A stretch of 64,000 bases of DNA from an uncultured Pseudokineococcus sp. (lineage in GTDB: Bacteria > Actinomycetota > Actinomycetes > Actinomycetales > Quadrisphaeraceae): assembly GCF_947495735.1 (NCBI RefSeq), contig NZ_CANMAA010000008.1, positions 62,001 through 126,000 of the forward strand. The letters run 5' to 3'. A model generated the notes under the pieces. The model saw only the letters and a list, made by a program, of their open reading frames with translations. It ran no database searches and had not been told where the DNA came from. Both the position numbers and the translations under genes were made by a program. Below, in pieces: positions 14,901-23,174 of the stretch. Position 1 is the first letter of the stretch. Each line of letters begins with the position of its first letter.

Positions 14901-16727
14901 ATGAGCCGCCCCGCCGAGACGTCCGGCGCCGCCCGCGCCGCGCTGCGGCGACCCGGTGCCCCCGCGCGCGGACCGGTGCTGGCCCTGCTCGCCCTCGTGG
15001 CGGGCCTGCTGGCCCTCGCGCTGGGTGCCTCGCCGGCGAGCGCGCTGGCGGCGGAGCCCGACCTGCGCGTCGCCCCCGGCGGCAGCGCCGTCCTCCCCGC
15101 TGCGGCGCCGCCCCGCGAGGGCGTCGAGTGGCAGCTGGTGGGCGAGCCCGACGCCTCGCTGGTGCGCTCGGCGGTCGTGGACGCGGCGACCGGGGAGCTC
15201 GCCGTCGAGGTGGCCGACGGGTACCGCGGGCGCCTGGTGCTGGCGCGGCGCGCCGTCGACCGCGGGACGGGCACCGCCGACGAGCCGGAGCGCGTCGTGG
15301 TCGAGGTGGCGGACGACGAGCCGCTCGCGCCGGGCGAGCGCCTGCGCGCGCCCCTGTCCGCCGACGGCACGGCCGTCGTCGAGGTCCTGCTGCCCCCGGC
15401 TCCCGACGGCGCCGCCCGGGCGGTCGAGGCGGGCCCGGGCCTGGTCGCGGACGTGGACCCCGAGACCGGGGTGCTGCGCGTGGAGTCCGAGCCGGGCGTC
15501 GCCGGGGCGAGCCGCGTGACGGTGGTCTCCGTGGACGCCGACGGCGCCCCCGCGGGCGAGCCGCTCGAGGTGCCCGTGGACGTCGCGCCCTCGCTGCCCG
15601 CGCTGCGCGGCGAGGGCCGCGCGGACGCCCCCGTCGGGGTGCCGCTGCCGGACGTCGTCGGCGGGTCCGCGGGCGACCTGTCCGTGCAGACCGGGGAGGA
15701 CGGCCCCGCCGCGGACGTCCGCGGCGGTGCCCTCGTCCTCGAGCCGGGCGGCGCGAGCGGCCTGCTGCACCTCGCGCTCGTGCCCTCGGCCGGCGGGGTC
15801 GCGGGCGACCCCGCCCCCGTGGCGGTGGACGTGGCCCCCGTCGTCGTCGCCGAGGAGGTCTCCGGGGCCCCGGGCGAGGAGGTGCCCGTGCCGCTGGAGC
15901 TGCTGGGGACCGACGCCGCTCCCGTCCTCGTCGACGACGCCGCCGGCGCGCTGGCCGTGGTCGGCGACGGGCTCGTGGCCCGGGTGCCCGGCGACGCGCG
16001 GGAGGACCTGCGCGGCGCGGTCGCCGTCGTCGACGCGGACGGGCTGCGCGGGGAGCCCGTGCCCGTCGTCGTCCGGGTCAGCGCGCCCGTGGTGGAGGCG
16101 CCCGTGGTGGAGGCGCCCGTGGTGGAGGCGCCGGTGGGGGACGCGCCGGAGCCCGCGACCCCGGAGCCCGTCGTCGAGCCGGTGGCCGAGCCCGCGGCGC
16201 CCGCGGGTCGCGTCGCTGCCGCCGTCCTGCCCCGGGCGCAGGCGGCGTCGACGCCGGAGCCCGTCGACGTCGTCGCCGAGGCCGCGGCGCGGCAGCAGGC
16301 GGAGGACCAGGCGGCCGCCGAGCGGGCCGCCGCCGACCAGGCCGCTGCCCAGCGGGCCGCAGCCGACCAGGCGGCCGCCGACGCGGCCGGGGGGCAGCAG
16401 GTGTCCGCCTCCGGCGCGCTCCCGGACCCCGTCCTCACCAGCGCGGCCGCGACGACGACCGCGGGAGCGCCGCCGGCGGGCGACCAGGTGGCCCCCGGCC
16501 TGGTGGTCCTCGACACGTTCAGCACGTCCGCCACCACCGACGTCGGGTCCGCGGCGACCGTCCCGCCCGTCACGACCGCGCCCCCGACGACCGCGCCCGT
16601 GCTCACGGCCCTGCCGCGCACGGGCGGGGAGCTGGCGCTCGGAGGGGCGCTGGGGGGCCTCGTCCTGCTGGCCGGCCTCGCCCTGCTCGTGGGCGCGCGG
16701 CGCCGGCTGCGGGTCGCCAGGGGCTGA
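14901..16727 (+). CDS. LPXTG-anchored cell-wall surface protein
   Basis: This is a secreted protein expected to be attached to peptidoglycan by sortase. In 608 residues the order is: signal peptide with hydrophobic core (LALLALVAGLLALALG) ending near ASALAAE; a Gly/Ala/Val-rich acidic region with beta-domain-like repeats; VVEAP three times in tandem (16087-16131); an Ala/Gln/Asp-rich coiled segment around 16300-16390; a Thr/Pro stalk; and the sorting signal LPRTGG, a hydrophobic helix and a basic tail (GARRRLRVARG). ATG at 14901 follows GAGGAG. No sortase gene is in the window. The ligand or function is unknown. Confidence 0.85.
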   Translation: MSRPAETSGAARAALRRPGAPARGPVLALLALVAGLLALALGASPASALAAEPDLRVAPGGSAVLPAAAPPREGVEWQLVGEPDASLVRSAVVDAATGELAVEVADGYRGRLVLARRAVDRGTGTADEPERVVVEVADDEPLAPGERLRAPLSADGTAVVEVLLPPAPDGAARAVEAGPGLVADVDPETGVLRVESEPGVAGASRVTVVSVDADGAPAGEPLEVPVDVAPSLPALRGEGRADAPVGVPLPDVVGGSAGDLSVQTGEDGPAADVRGGALVLEPGGASGLLHLALVPSAGGVAGDPAPVAVDVAPVVVAEEVSGAPGEEVPVPLELLGTDAAPVLVDDAAGALAVVGDGLVARVPGDAREDLRGAVAVVDADGLRGEPVPVVVRVSAPVVEAPVVEAPVVEAPVGDAPEPATPEPVVEPVAEPAAPAGRVAAAVLPRAQAASTPEPVDVVAEAAARQQAEDQAAAERAAADQAAAQRAAADQAAADAAGGQQVSASGALPDPVLTSAAATTTAGAPPAGDQVAPGLVVLDTFSTSATTDVGSAATVPPVTTAPPTTAPVLTALPRTGGELALGGALGGLVLLAGLALLVGARRRLRVARG

Positions 16728-17567: not shown

Positions 17568-18503
17568 TCAGGTGGCGGGGCGGTCGCCGCCGCTCGCGGT
17601 GGCGTCGGGCCCGCCGGCCAGCCGCTCGACGACGAGCAGCACCACGACGAAGGCTGCGCCCGCCAGGGCGAGACCCACGACGGGAAGGACGTCGCCGGTG
17701 GGGGCGAGGACCCCGCGGTCCTCGGTCTGCCACGGCCACAGGGCGCGCAGCGACCCCGCCATCAGCCCCGTCATGACGGCGAGCGTGACGGCGCGGTGGG
17801 TGGAGAGCAGGTGCTGCAGCAGCCGCACGAAGACCGCCAGCCCGAGGCCGGCGCCCAGCGCGAAGGCCCCGAGGTAGGCGAGGTCGCGGGCGTTGACCGC
17901 GGCGAGCGTCGGCTCGTACAGGCCGACCGTCGCGAGCAGGAACGAGCCGGAGACCCCCGGCAGCACGAGGGCGCAGATGGCCACCGCGGCCGCCAGCGAG
18001 ACCACGGGCAGCGGCGGGTCGGCCGCCGTGCCCGGGGGCAGGCCCGTCAGGAGGAAGGCGAGCACCGCCGAGACGGCCATCAGCAGCACCAGCCGGCCCG
18101 TCCAGCGGCCCACCATCATCGCGGGCACGGCGAGGGAGGCGAGGACGAGCCCGGCGAACACCGCGCGCGAGCCGACGGGGTGCTCCTCGATGAGCGGCTC
18201 GATGAGCCGGGCGCCGAGGACGACGGCCACGACCATGCCCGCCAGCAGCGGGGCCACGACGAGCCAGTGCCCCCGCGCGATCTCCGCGCGGGCGCCGCGG
18301 ACGTCGCCCCGCAGGAGGCGCTGGGCGGCCGACACCGTGTGCCCGGCCGTGTCGATCAGCCGGTCGTAGACCCCGGTGATGAGCGCGATGGTGCCGCCGC
18401 TGACGCCGGGCACCACCTCGGCGGCGCCCATCAGGAGACCCCGCCCCACGTGCAGGGGCAGGTGGCTCACCGGCGTCCGGGTCTTCGCCGGCTGCGTCGT
18501 CAT
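17568..18503 (-). CDS. DUF368 family membrane protein
   Basis: This 311-residue polytopic membrane protein carries the family hallmarks near the N-terminus (GAAEVVPGVSGGTIALITGVYDRL) and a second, related LVLPGVSGSFLLATVGLYE segment in the middle, giving an inverted-duplicate look. Some DUF368 relatives have been implicated in flipping undecaprenyl phosphate; I offer that only as a family hint. ATG at 18503 was chosen because the family N-terminus begins right after it; the frame upstream of it is a shadow of the next gene. Confidence 0.8.
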   Translation of the reverse strand: MTTQPAKTRTPVSHLPLHVGRGLLMGAAEVVPGVSGGTIALITGVYDRLIDTAGHTVSAAQRLLRGDVRGARAEIARGHWLVVAPLLAGMVVAVVLGARLIEPLIEEHPVGSRAVFAGLVLASLAVPAMMVGRWTGRLVLLMAVSAVLAFLLTGLPPGTAADPPLPVVSLAAAVAICALVLPGVSGSFLLATVGLYEPTLAAVNARDLAYLGAFALGAGLGLAVFVRLLQHLLSTHRAVTLAVMTGLMAGSLRALWPWQTEDRGVLAPTGDVLPVVGLALAGAAFVVVLLVVERLAGGPDATASGGDRPAT

Positions 18504-18550
18504 GGCAGAACCGTAGGCGGGGCCGCCGCCCCCGGGCGCCGCTGCCGCGC

Positions 18551-19483
18551 TCAGCCCCTGCCGGGCCCAGCCCCGCGGCGCAGCACGTGCGCCGCGTCGC
18601 GGACCCGCGTGCGCAGCCGGTAGAGGCTCGTCGAGGCGGTGACGAAGACGTCGGTCCCGTCGTCCCCGCCGAAGCACAAGTTGCTCACGAGCTCGCCGAC
18701 CGGCACGCGCCCGACCTCGCGGCCGTCGGGGTGCAGGACCAGCACGTCGGTGTCGCTCGTCGTCCACAGGTGACCGCGCTCGTCCACGCGGATGCCGTCG
18801 GGGACCCCGGGGTCGACCTCGGCGAGCACGCGGCCGCCCTCGCACCGGCGCCCGTCCACGACGTCGTAGGCGTGGACGGCGTGCCCGGGCCCGGGAGGTG
18901 CGTCGTCGCGCGTGGGCGAGCGGGAGGAGTCCGCGACGTAGAGCACGCGCTCGTCGGGGGAGAAGGCCAGGCCGTTGGGCATCGCGACGTCCGTGACGAC
19001 GGCGTCGAGCTCGCCGGTGGCCGGGTCGTGCCGGAAGACGTGGTGCCCGCCGTACTCCTCCTCGCCCGGGTGCCCCTCGGCGGCCTTGTGGATGCCGTAC
19101 GAGGGGTCAGTGAACCAGACGGTGCCGTCGGAGCGCACGACGACGTCGTTGGGCGAGTTCAGGCGGTGGCCCCGCCAGGAGTCGACGAGACCCGTGACGA
19201 CGCCGTCGCGCTCGACCTCCACGCGACGGCGGCCGTGCGAGCACTGCACGACCTCGCCGTCCAGGCCGAGGGTGCGGCCGTTGGTGAACTCCACGTCCTC
19301 GGCGAGGACGCCCCAGGAGCCGCTCGGCGCGTGCCACTCCATCACCCGGTTCCCCGGGATGTCGCTGCAGCGCACGGCCCGCCGGGCCGGCACCCACAGG
19401 GGGCCCTCGGCCCAGGTCATGCCGCCGCCCAGCCGCTCGGGCGCCACCCCGGCCACCAGCAGGTCCTCCAGCGCGTCCGCCAC
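18551..19483 (-). CDS. SMP-30/gluconolactonase family lactonase
   Basis: This six-bladed beta-propeller calcium-dependent lactonase has 310 residues. Recognisable pieces are GGGMTWAEGPLWVPARRAVRCSD, HRLNSPNDVVVRSDGTVWFTDPSYG and VAMPNGLAFSPDERVLYVADS, holding the metal ligands Glu, Asn and Asp. Such enzymes hydrolyse sugar lactones; a link with aldarate or gluconate metabolism is possible, but this gene is 13 kb from the hexarate operon. The GTG at 19483 is preceded by GAGGAGGAG, which fixes the start. Confidence 0.87.
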   Translation of the reverse strand: MADALEDLLVAGVAPERLGGGMTWAEGPLWVPARRAVRCSDIPGNRVMEWHAPSGSWGVLAEDVEFTNGRTLGLDGEVVQCSHGRRRVEVERDGVVTGLVDSWRGHRLNSPNDVVVRSDGTVWFTDPSYGIHKAAEGHPGEEEYGGHHVFRHDPATGELDAVVTDVAMPNGLAFSPDERVLYVADSSRSPTRDDAPPGPGHAVHAYDVVDGRRCEGGRVLAEVDPGVPDGIRVDERGHLWTTSDTDVLVLHPDGREVGRVPVGELVSNLCFGGDDGTDVFVTASTSLYRLRTRVRDAAHVLRRGAGPGRG

Positions 19484-20083: not shown

Positions 20084-20533
20084 CTAGAGGTACAGGCTGC
20101 CGTCGGCGAACCAGCGGTCGCCGCCCGTGGTGAGGCGACGACCGGTGACGCGGTGCGGGATCAGGCGGACCCAGTGCTCGCGCTCGCCGGGGGCCCACGG
20201 GTCCGCGCCGGAGCGGCGGGTCCGCTCGACGATCTCGGCGGAGTGCTCGCCCCCGACCTCCTCGGCCAGGCCCTGCACGAGCACGCTCCACCCGCTGCGC
20301 GTGGACGGGTCGACCTGGTCCACCTGGAAGGCGACGTTGCGGTGGTCCACCCGCCGGCGCATCGGCTCGCCCGTCCGCAGGACGACGACGCCGCCGCTCA
20401 TCGCGTAGTTCACCGGGACGACGAGGGGGTGCTCGCCCTCGACCACCGCCAGCCGCCCCAGCACCTGCGAGGCCAGCAGCTCGTGGCACTGCTCGCTCGT
20501 CAGCTCCTCGAGGCGCTGCTCCTGCGTCGTCAT
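20084..20533 (-). CDS. Pyridoxamine 5'-phosphate oxidase-like flavin-binding protein
   Basis: This small split-barrel protein of 149 residues probably binds FMN or F420. Typical pieces are LLASQVLGRLAVVEGEHPLVVPVNYAM, RRVDHRNVAFQVDQVD and SGWSVLVQGLAEEV. Related proteins occur in the mycobacterial DosR regulon. ATG at 20533 has GGGAGG upstream. A DevR-type palindrome at 20601-20614 lies in its promoter region, which suggests control by the DevR-like regulator encoded at 53751. The reaction is unknown. Confidence 0.82.
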   Translation of the reverse strand: MTTQEQRLEELTSEQCHELLASQVLGRLAVVEGEHPLVVPVNYAMSGGVVVLRTGEPMRRRVDHRNVAFQVDQVDPSTRSGWSVLVQGLAEEVGGEHSAEIVERTRRSGADPWAPGEREHWVRLIPHRVTGRRLTTGGDRWFADGSLYL

Positions 20534-20614: not shown

Positions 20615-20664
20615 GAGGTGGCTGCACGAGGACGGTCTCTACGCCGTCCTCGTGCAGCCACCTC
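20615..20664. repeat. Palindromic element copy 1 (perfect 21-base arms)
   Basis: The left arm 20615-20635 (begins GAGGTGGCTGCACG) and right arm 20644-20664 are perfect complements around an 8-base loop. The 46-base core 20617-20662, read in reverse complement, differs from copy 2 (21629-21674) at only three positions. The copy lies between two divergent genes, so it is not simply a terminator. Confidence 0.92.
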
Positions 20665-20716
20665 GGGTGTCCACAGGGCCCCGGCGCGACCGGCTCGTCC
20701 CGGCCACCCTGGTCCC

Positions 20717-21652
20717 GTGCCGAGGACCACCGCGCTGCCCGCCGACCTGCGCGCGCTGGCGGCGCACCAGGGCGGGTGTCTCTCGCGGGCGCAGCTGCGC
20801 GATCACGCCGTCGACGCCGACCGGGTGGCCGCCGAGGTGCGCGCCGGGCGGTGGTGCGTCGTCGGCCCGCTCGTCGTGCGCACCTGCACCGGGGCGCTCG
20901 ACGCGGCGGCGCGGCGCTGGGCGGCGGTCCTGTCCGCAGGAGAGGGGGCCGCCCTGTCGGGGCTGACGGCGCTGGAGGTCCACGGGCTGCGCGGGTGGGA
21001 GCGGCCGTCCGTCGCCGTCCGGGTGGCTCGTGGGCACCGGCTGCCCGCGCTGGTCGGCGTCGTCGCGACGTCGAGCCGCCGGCCCGCCCGGGTGGTGCGG
21101 CGCGGGGGCCTGCCGCTGCTCGCCGTCGAGGACGCCGCGGTCGGGGCCGCGGGGGCGGCTCGGTCTCCGGCGACGGCGGGCGGCCTGCTCGCGGCGGTCG
21201 TCCAGCAGCGCCTGACGACGCCGGCGCGGCTGCGGGACGCCGTCCTCGCCGCGGGGCCGGTGCGCCACCGGCGGGAGCTGCTGGCCGTGCTCGACGACGT
21301 CGAGGGCGGGGCGCAGGCGCTGTCGGAGGTGCGGCTCGTGCGGCTGTGCCGGACGGCGCGGCTCCCGGCGCCGGCGCAGCAGGTGGTCCGGCTCGACGGC
21401 GCCGGGCGGCGTCGCTACCTCGACGCGCTGTGGGTGCTCGACGACGGGCGCCGCGTCCTGCTCGAGGTCGACGGCGTCAGGCACGTCGAGGAGGCCCGCT
21501 GGTACGACGACCTGCTGCGCGCCGCAGAGGTGGCGCAGCCGGGGGAGGTGGTGCTGCGGCTGCCGGCCCGGGCCCTGCGGGTCGAGCCGGCGCGGGTGGT
21601 GGCGCTGCTGCGCCGGCATCTCGGGCCGGGTGGCTGCACCAGGACGGCGTAG
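20717..21652 (+). CDS. AbiEi-like N-terminus with DUF559/Vsr-like endonuclease C-terminus
   Basis: The 311-residue product has an N-terminal winged-helix-like segment (LRALAAHQGGCLSRAQLRDH) followed by RAGRWCVVGPLVVRT, as in AbiEi-type antitoxin or regulator proteins. Its C-terminal domain resembles DUF559/very-short-patch-repair nucleases: RRYLDALWVLDDG then VLLEVDGVRHVE and WYDDLLRAAEV, giving the Asp...Glu-x-Asp pattern of a PD-(D/E)XK fold. The start at GTG 20717 has no strong ribosome site. The last codons and the TAG stop are supplied by palindromic element copy 2. No AbiEii toxin partner is adjacent. Function is unknown; a role tied to the flanking elements is possible. Confidence 0.75.
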   Translation: MPRTTALPADLRALAAHQGGCLSRAQLRDHAVDADRVAAEVRAGRWCVVGPLVVRTCTGALDAAARRWAAVLSAGEGAALSGLTALEVHGLRGWERPSVAVRVARGHRLPALVGVVATSSRRPARVVRRGGLPLLAVEDAAVGAAGAARSPATAGGLLAAVVQQRLTTPARLRDAVLAAGPVRHRRELLAVLDDVEGGAQALSEVRLVRLCRTARLPAPAQQVVRLDGAGRRRYLDALWVLDDGRRVLLEVDGVRHVEEARWYDDLLRAAEVAQPGEVVLRLPARALRVEPARVVALLRRHLGPGGCTRTA

Positions 21653-21674
21653 AGGTCGTCCTCGTGCAGCCACC
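21629..21674. repeat. Palindromic element copy 2 (inverted relative to copy 1)
   Basis: Arms 21629-21646 and 21657-21674 pair with a single mismatch around a 10-base loop that contains the TAG stop of the preceding gene. The loop sequence shows that it is an inverted copy of the element at 20617-20662 (43 of 46 positions identical). It lies between convergent genes and could also act as a terminator. Confidence 0.92.
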
Positions 21675-21680
21675 ACCGGC

Positions 21681-23174
21681 TCAGTGGGGCGCGACCTCGG
21701 GCGAGGGCAGCTGCGCCGGGCGCCGCACGAGCAGCGAGATGGCCACGGCGACGACCGAGAGGCACGCGCCGACGAGGAAGGCGGCGCGCACGCCGTCCGC
21801 CGTCGCGGCGACCTGGTCGGCGCCCTCGGCGAGCCGCGAGGCCGCCGTCGTGCTGAGCAGGGTGACGAACAGCGCCGTCCCGGCACCGCCGGCGAGCTGC
21901 TGCACCGTGCTGACCACGGCGCTGCCGTGGGAGTACAGGTGCGGCGGCAGGGAGCCGAGCGCCGAGGTGAGCAGCGGGGTGAAGACGAAGGCCAGCCCGG
22001 CGCTGAGCAGGACGTGCGCGGCGACGACGTGCAGCGTCGAGGAGCCGACGCCGAGCGTCGTCATGGTCCACAGCGCCGCGCTCACGACGACGACGCCCGG
22101 CGTCACGAGCGGCCGCGGGCCGACCTTGTCGAACAGCCCGCCGACGACCGGCGAGAGCACGGCCATGACGAGGCCGCCGGGCAGCAGCAGCAGGCCGGTG
22201 CTCAGCGTGGACAGGCCGAGGACGTTCTGGAGGTAGAGCGGCAGCACGATGAGCGAGCCGAACAGCGCCATCATGCTGATGACGACGAGGCCCACCGCCA
22301 CCGCGAAGGAGCGGGTGGCGAAGACGCGCAGGTCGAGCAGGGCCGCGTCCTGCCGGGCCAGCCGCAGCTGGCGGCGGACGAAGACGACCAGCGCGACGAC
22401 GCCCACGACGAGCGGCAGCCACACCGGGACGACGTGCTCGCCGCCGCCCTCGCCGATGCTCGCGAGGCCGTAGAGCAGGCCGCCGAAGGCCAGCGCCGAG
22501 AGCACCACGGAGGGGACGTCGAGGTGGCTCGGGCGCGGCGTCGTGGCGTTGCGGATGCGCAGCGCGCCCAGGGCCAGCGACGCGAGCGCGATCGGCAGGA
22601 CCAGCCAGAACATCCAGCGCCAGTCGAGGACGGAGAGCACCAGGCCCGAGAGCGTCGGGCCGATGGCCGGGGCCACGGCGATGACGATCGAGATGCGCCC
22701 CATCATCCGGCCGCGCGAGGAGGCCGGGGCCAGGGTGAGGACGGTCGTGAAGAGCAGCGGCAGCATGATCGCGGTGCCGCTGGCCTGCACCACGCGGCCG
22801 AGCAGCAGCACGCCGAAGCCCGGGGCCAGCGCCGCGATCAGCGTGCCGGCGCTGAACAGCGACATCGCCGTGAGGAAGAGCGGCCGGATGTGGAAGCGCT
22901 GCAGGAGGAACCCGGTCACGGGGATGACGACGGCCATCGTCAGCAGGAAGCCGGTGGTGAGCCACTGCGCCGTCGCCGTCGTGACGGCGAGGTCCTCCAT
23001 GAGCCGCGGCAGGGCCACGCTCATGATCGTCTCGTTGAGGATGACGACGAAGGCCGACACGAGCAGCAGCCCGATGACGAGCCCGCTGCCCGGCGCCATC
23101 TTCTCGGCCGTGCCGGTGACGCCCGTTCCCGCGCTGGGGTCGCCGCCCGCGCTCTTCTCTGTCCTGGTGCTCAT
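21681..23174 (-). CDS. MFS multidrug exporter, DHA2 (EmrB/QacA) family
   Basis: This proton-driven drug efflux protein has 497 residues and about 14 membrane helices. The motif D1-like segment FVVILNETIMSVALPRLMEDL, motif A LLQRFHIRPLFLTAM and motif C-like VIAVAPAIGPTLSGLV are present. ATG at 23174 was chosen because only a short charged tail precedes the first helix. A TetR regulator is divergently encoded 140 bases away, the usual arrangement for an inducible exporter. Substrates cannot be inferred. Confidence 0.88.
   Translation of the reverse strand: MSTRTEKSAGGDPSAGTGVTGTAEKMAPGSGLVIGLLLVSAFVVILNETIMSVALPRLMEDLAVTTATAQWLTTGFLLTMAVVIPVTGFLLQRFHIRPLFLTAMSLFSAGTLIAALAPGFGVLLLGRVVQASGTAIMLPLLFTTVLTLAPASSRGRMMGRISIVIAVAPAIGPTLSGLVLSVLDWRWMFWLVLPIALASLALGALRIRNATTPRPSHLDVPSVVLSALAFGGLLYGLASIGEGGGEHVVPVWLPLVVGVVALVVFVRRQLRLARQDAALLDLRVFATRSFAVAVGLVVISMMALFGSLIVLPLYLQNVLGLSTLSTGLLLLPGGLVMAVLSPVVGGLFDKVGPRPLVTPGVVVVSAALWTMTTLGVGSSTLHVVAAHVLLSAGLAFVFTPLLTSALGSLPPHLYSHGSAVVSTVQQLAGGAGTALFVTLLSTTAASRLAEGADQVAATADGVRAAFLVGACLSVVAVAISLLVRRPAQLPSPEVAPH

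Follow-up and report, generated by a model that had tools for sequence, protein, structure and literature searches.

The described systems closest to the locus analyzed here are REP/RAYT (REPtrons; TnpA-REP), in which a gene sits between paired palindromes that belong to a private family and diverge along with the protein, and solitary palindrome copies occupy intergenic space, frequently close to where genes end or in gaps between convergent genes, with some families left as orphans (PMC2817692, PMC3733652, PMC8266576). AbiEi proteins, in turn, bind to their own promoters at inverted repeats (PMC7319586). The original prediction for this locus, i.e., a possible new mobile unit made of hairpin ends plus a nuclease and recalling REP/RAYT or MITE-like elements, chose the right comparison in REP/RAYT. 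The finding is larger than the single case it described: throughout the class Actinomycetes, genes of this nuclease family commonly have a palindrome pair private to them.

The window, i.e., the whole 64,000-nucleotide stretch of DNA analyzed, comes from an uncultured Pseudokineococcus sp. (genome G000) and was compared with P. marinus (G001), a third Pseudokineococcus species (G002), and another uncultured Pseudokineococcus (G003). The unit and its surroundings comprise:

17568-18503, minus strand: DUF368-like gene, one edge of the unit-free gap
18504..18550, no strand: unit-free site, the gap between the DUF368-like and SMP-30-like genes (from comparison with G003)
18551-19483, minus strand: SMP-30-like gene, other edge of the unit-free gap
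20084..20533, minus strand: pyridoxamine 5'-phosphate oxidase-like gene, left neighbor, outside the unit
20615..20664, no strand: hp1, the 5' cognate hairpin, with a perfect 21-bp stem and an 8-nt loop (from sequence)
20667..20676, plus strand: DnaA-box-like motif GTGTCCACAG just inside hp1 (from sequence; kept in the family)
20717..21652, plus strand: gene for a 311-aa fusion of an AbiEi-like half (residues 2-196) and a Vsr/DUF559-like nuclease (residues 199-308) (from fold and homologs)
21629..21674, no strand: hp2, the 3' cognate hairpin, which codes for the C-terminal tail and the stop codon (from sequence)
21681..23174, minus strand: MFS transporter gene, right neighbor, outside the unit

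From hp1 through the gene to hp2, the unit spans ~1.06 kb. Both predicted hairpins were reproduced, the second with an 18-bp stem containing one mismatch, and over the 46-bp core hp1 agrees with the reverse complement of hp2 at 43/46 positions, against 39/46 when hp2 is read directly. The gene starts with GTG and ends, as had been noticed, within the loop of hp2 (TAG at 21650-21652). Rfam returned nothing real at the two window hairpins, and a tblastn search of plasmid records with the window protein gave zero matches.

The window protein alone had zero matches in Pfam and NCBIfam. Among 27 homologs, Pfam models matched as AbiEi_4 (14/27), DUF559 (6/27), and MTES_1575 (3/27), and an AlphaFold model from 27 homologs reached a mean pLDDT of 90. 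In structure comparisons of this model, the N-terminal half (residues 2-196) resembled the AbiEi antitoxin 6y8q (Z 11.9) and Rv2827c (Z 8.2), and thus has the wHTH plus C-terminal antitoxin domain fold by which AbiEi proteins are defined. For the C-terminal half (residues 199-308), the matches were 3hrl, a protein of DUF559 type (Z 10.5), I-Bth0305I, a homing nuclease (Z 10.3), and Vsr (Z 9.5), i.e., Z 9.5–10.5 to structures 3hrl, 3r3p, and 1cw0, and a profile search also matched 3hrl (E 5e-7). Residues E204, D236, and H256, which by analogy with Vsr probably form the active site, are invariant among the 27 homologs; both the fold and the conserved acidic/histidine core of the Vsr/DUF559 (EDxHD) superfamily are present. 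Fold and homologs together bear out the AbiEi-like N-terminus and DUF559/Vsr-like C-terminus originally proposed, and the window gene, on the predicted structure, joins an AbiEi-like half to a nuclease of the Vsr superfamily.

We evaluated hairpin pairs across the family. Among 59 homologs, strong hairpins were detected upstream of 37, downstream of 33, and on both sides of 25, the 30 class-level loci being among the best-scoring and a few families being over-represented. In all 25 homologs with both hairpins, the only ones in which a pair could be assessed, the two matched each other (one gene being counted twice, as L054 and L189), with a mean within-pair similarity of 0.86 compared to 0.21 for pairs exchanged between genes. 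Hairpins on both sides were found for 6 of 394 control genes (other genes of the Pseudokineococcus loci plus one locus of a same-family relative), with 0 matching pairs. Hence the window pair goes beyond chance, and the proposal that hairpins and nuclease form one unit is supported.

Each gene clade has a palindrome sequence of its own, completely different from that of neighboring clades. MFS-adjacent relatives in G001 and G002 carry a different hairpin at their two ends, GGTGGCAGCCCCTCGTCG and its complement, the G003 relative has this hairpin at its 5' end, and other paralogs, as well as homologs in other families of the class, are bracketed by distinct pairs of their own. Hairpin similarity averaged 0.93 at ≥80% protein identity, 0.42 at 70–80%, and ~0.2 below, and hairpin and protein divergence were correlated (Mantel r 0.61, p 0.0001). 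The inverted orientation of the window pair was confirmed for that pair and did not extend to a rule: the loops of the 85%-identical G003 relative are in direct orientation, and across the family, where 11 pairs are direct, 12 inverted, and 3 tied, orientation is random. In same-family relatives (L045, L047, L055, and L043), each hairpin arm is itself near-palindromic, e.g., TGGCACGGGGTGGCCCCGTGCCA, forming a palindrome within a palindrome. The G003 B-type gene (L069, about 15213-15670) loses homology after about 276 residues, continues in an unrelated frame, and lacks the 3' hairpin; this unit looks broken by rearrangement or misassembly. Long G runs beside a family gene at a G003 contig end (L092; C9, about 172300-172440) are probably an assembly artefact.

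A second element recurs inside the unit. In 34/36 homologs, the stretch from the 5' hairpin to the start codon contains TTGTCCACAG, TTATCCACA, or a near variant, ≤25 bp from the hairpin in 27 of them, compared to 9/419 control upstream regions and 1/54 solitary hairpins with an adjacent box. The two sequences are those given as DnaA boxes for Streptomyces/Mycobacterium and E. coli (PMC4285127). Judging from sequence, the DnaA-like box may tie the unit to replication.

The original prediction had singled out absence of the 46-bp core elsewhere in the genome and in relatives as evidence against a mobile unit. We found the core at three more places in G000 (C7, C2, and C5) and at about 4–7 places in each sister species. 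Most copies are solitary, contrary to the idea that they might always flank such genes: genomes carrying a cognate gene usually hold 4–14 solitary intergenic copies per family. None of 54 Pseudokineococcus sites lies inside a called gene, and gaps between convergent genes hold 30/70 solitary copies (43%) and make up 80/350 gaps (23%; p 3e-4), bearing in mind that genes were called with a simple codon-usage script, so that gene ends are approximate, and that some sites are orthologous between species and hence not independent.

Hairpin types in the four Pseudokineococcus genomes agree with the gene clades present. C51-type hairpins occur only in G001 (9 solitary) and G003 (14 solitary), D52-type only in G002 and G000, and F60-type only in G002. 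Overall, solitary copies were found in 12/12 gene-bearing and 4/12 gene-less genome/type combinations (Fisher p 0.0013), gene presence being called by protein search, which a very diverged gene could escape. Orphan hairpins, for which the cognate gene was undetected, are type A in G002, type B in G000, and type E53 in G001/G003, which shows that copies can persist where the gene is undetected. The type A orphans of G002 are found at L079, L080, L082, and L012, and several G002 A-type hairpins have an inner stem private to that genome (CG..CG instead of GC..GC), as if homogenized within it. The hairpin belonging to one G207 gene, from a distant family, recurs at about a dozen further places in G207, at many in G094, and at a few in G188; G168 yielded one partial match, and G251 yielded none.

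Sister species also differ in whether a whole unit occupies a given orthologous site, which speaks against the locus being fixed chromosomal sequence, the other outcome that the prediction had named as adverse. G003 carries a complete hp1-gene-hp2 unit, with the protein 85% identical to the window protein, between the DUF368-like and SMP-30-like genes, where the window has a hairpin-free gap of 47 bp. The G000 and G003 units share homology from the outer edge of hp1 onward, ending at hp2. At the same site, G001 has the 3' half of a unit beside SMP-30 and then a contig end, and G002 does not polarize the site, as SMP-30 is not beside DUF368 there. The stop codon of the MFS gene adjoins the window unit in G000 and, within a few bp, a B-type unit in G001 and G002. 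A further unit, at C8:28.1-29.2k in G000, is missing between the corresponding neighbors in G001, G002, and G003, and one other site holds a solitary hairpin of another type in G000, a whole unit in G001 and G002, and the start of one in G003. No hidden units were found in the large G003 gaps C11:51.6-52.7k and 57.4-59.0k, which hold other genes.

We found no target-site duplication, which had been suggested as something to look for, in four G001/G003 hairpin/no-hairpin comparisons and one unit gap, the alleles being diverged or partly deleted. Likewise, G001 versus G003 yielded no clean insertion footprint of solitary hairpins: hairpin-less alleles hold partial remnants or indels, look at least partly like deletions that left remnants, and do not separate gain from loss. 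Since many solitary copies are common to G001 and G003, the spread is not very recent.

The reading that we favor, with somewhat more confidence than doubt, builds on bracketing, privacy, co-divergence, dispersal, unit presence or absence between species, purifying selection on the gene, and the predicted two-part fold: the locus would represent one of the copies of a REP-like selfish element in which a hairpin, a DnaA-like box, the nuclease gene, and a second hairpin follow one another, and whose nuclease would recognize its own hairpin and be spread along with it through cutting and host repair. Specifically, the protein, an AbiEi-type DNA-binding half joined to a Vsr-superfamily nuclease, would most likely recognize the palindrome of its own unit, probably once replication exposes it as an extruded hairpin or cruciform; the DnaA-like box may couple the unit to replication. 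A cut at the palindrome would let host repair place copies of the hairpin alone (the solitary copies), and now and then of the whole unit, at intergenic positions close to where genes end. The protein and its palindrome would then diverge together as private pairs, and hairpins would stay as orphans upon gene loss. Several points count against the selfish unit. More than half of the sampled homologs (34/59) are without detectable strong hairpins on both sides, some having a weaker second hairpin (e.g., hp2 of G003) or a contig end, others none visible. Orphan families count on the same side, as do the deletion-like alleles, the lack of a target-site duplication, and the many solitary hairpins common to G001 and G003; no movement of hairpins or units was seen, and Vsr-type nucleases have, to our knowledge, no strand-transfer activity of their own. 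For the class as a whole, we consider it an even call whether these units represent an undescribed class of mobile palindromes, widespread in Actinomycetes, in which an AbiEi-Vsr nuclease would spread a private hairpin family through replication-coupled cut-and-repair, independently of HUH enzymes; REP-like elements would in that case have originated two or more times, with unrelated enzymes.

The alternative that survives best is that the nuclease and its dispersed hairpins are domesticated by the host as a resident system for hairpin processing, recombination, or chromosome maintenance, kept under selection and spreading as a by-product. The gene does evolve under purifying selection (dN/dS 0.20–0.25 in three pairs; 0.25 against the G003 relative), near-perfect palindromes are kept at orthologous G001/G003 sites, and the nuclease family occurs in 250/297 sampled genomes of the class, all of which speaks for a resident function. 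However, conserved housekeeping is not expected to involve hairpins that are wholly different between neighboring clades or units that come and go between sister species, and we consider this alternative unlikely.

A regulatory role is less probable still as the main explanation. There, the AbiEi-like half would bind hp1 as an operator, in line with the promoter binding of AbiEi proteins (PMC7319586) and with the position of hp1 about 50–190 bp upstream of the start codon in the family, the hairpins would act as insulating terminators, and the solitary copies, which often sit after stop codons, would be just terminators. Ordinary terminator-like hairpins do occur at such positions: the end of the OYE-like gene holds a complete C51 unit in G003 and G001, and unrelated terminator-like hairpins in G000 and G002 (L258, 1686-1722; L259, 1849-1892). 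Such gene-end hairpins may be preferred landing places. Yet autoregulation leaves unexplained why hp1, hp2, and the dispersed copies have a common sequence, why the hairpin is absent from most genomes without the gene clade, and why units lie in different places. A simple terminator was rejected as the main explanation, as sequence, beyond structure, is common to the copies; autoregulation may nonetheless be a secondary role, and termination a by-product under any reading.

We regard as quite improbable a toxin-antitoxin or defense function, in which an AbiEi-type antitoxin fused to a nuclease would act against invading DNA and the hairpins would mark self or regulate: the N-terminal half has the AbiEi fold, but the neighbors of the window gene, a pyridoxamine-phosphate oxidase and an MFS transporter, are not toxins, no AbiEii (DUF1814) toxin gene lies beside it, and the dispersed gene-private hairpins go unexplained. 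The least probable reading, with a very slim chance of being correct, takes the hairpins to be MITE-like repeats that a different transposase moves, with the bracketing a product of easy recombination between repeats. It fits the locally rearranged region around the window unit and the hairpin families without a detected gene but accounts neither for private matched pairs in many genera nor for the co-divergence of protein and hairpin, and Y1 transposases are absent from the four genomes.

Should DUF559/AbiEi-type genes, which are abundant in actinobacteria and so far unexplained, be the engines of private hairpin families, a large gene set would acquire a function and REP-like elements a second, unrelated enzyme. 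How palindromic repeats lacking a known transposase spread could then be tested on a single protein and its cognate hairpin, for which dozens of naturally occurring pairs would serve as specificity controls.

Taken together, the unit can be placed against four kinds of known systems. MITEs and IS elements likewise have short repeats around a gene plus copies without one, but here the ends are complete hairpins in either orientation, the unit is without a transposase of any kind, and target duplication was unseen. AbiEi antitoxins (S. agalactiae AbiEi, Rv2827c) have the two-domain N-terminal half, and differ in lacking the nuclease fusion and in being accompanied by a toxin gene, absent beside the window gene. 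EDxHD homing endonucleases (I-Bth0305I) and Vsr have the fold of the catalytic domain, whereas the unit described here is free-standing and intergenic, outside any intron or intein, with palindromic ends, repeated dispersed hairpins, and an AbiEi-like half in front. Comparison of sites with and without a unit gives no more than hints of homing-type behavior, in which an unoccupied target would be cleaved and copied into. So far as we are aware, no published system couples an AbiEi-Vsr nuclease to private palindromes, and nothing relevant on DUF559 or AbiEi paired with palindromes was found in the open-licence literature, while the subscription literature may hold a prior description.

REP/RAYT remains the closest match, with the gene between private palindromes, co-divergence, intergenic solitary copies, and orphan families all in common. 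The enzyme, however, is AbiEi plus a Vsr-like nuclease instead of the Y1 HUH transposase that defines RAYTs, and, as far as Y1 is concerned, the absence noted in the original prediction extends to whole genomes: the Y1 model (PF01797) gave 0 matches in G000–G003 and was positive in 5 control genomes. The two palindromes are randomly oriented here, unlike the inverted REPs flanking RAYTs, solitary copies usually number 4–14 instead of >100, and a DnaA-like box lies inside the unit. No constant GTAG/CGTC tag was noticed at the stem foot when hairpins and flanks were inspected by eye, GTAG occurring in A-type loops. With Y1 absent and orientation random, the unit is not a member of REP/RAYT; copy number is also lower, and a constant GTAG/CGTC foot went unnoticed. 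Although the separation would be weaker if the kind were defined by architecture alone, we judge that the unit would work like a REPtron and yet stands apart from it, the defining enzyme being absent.
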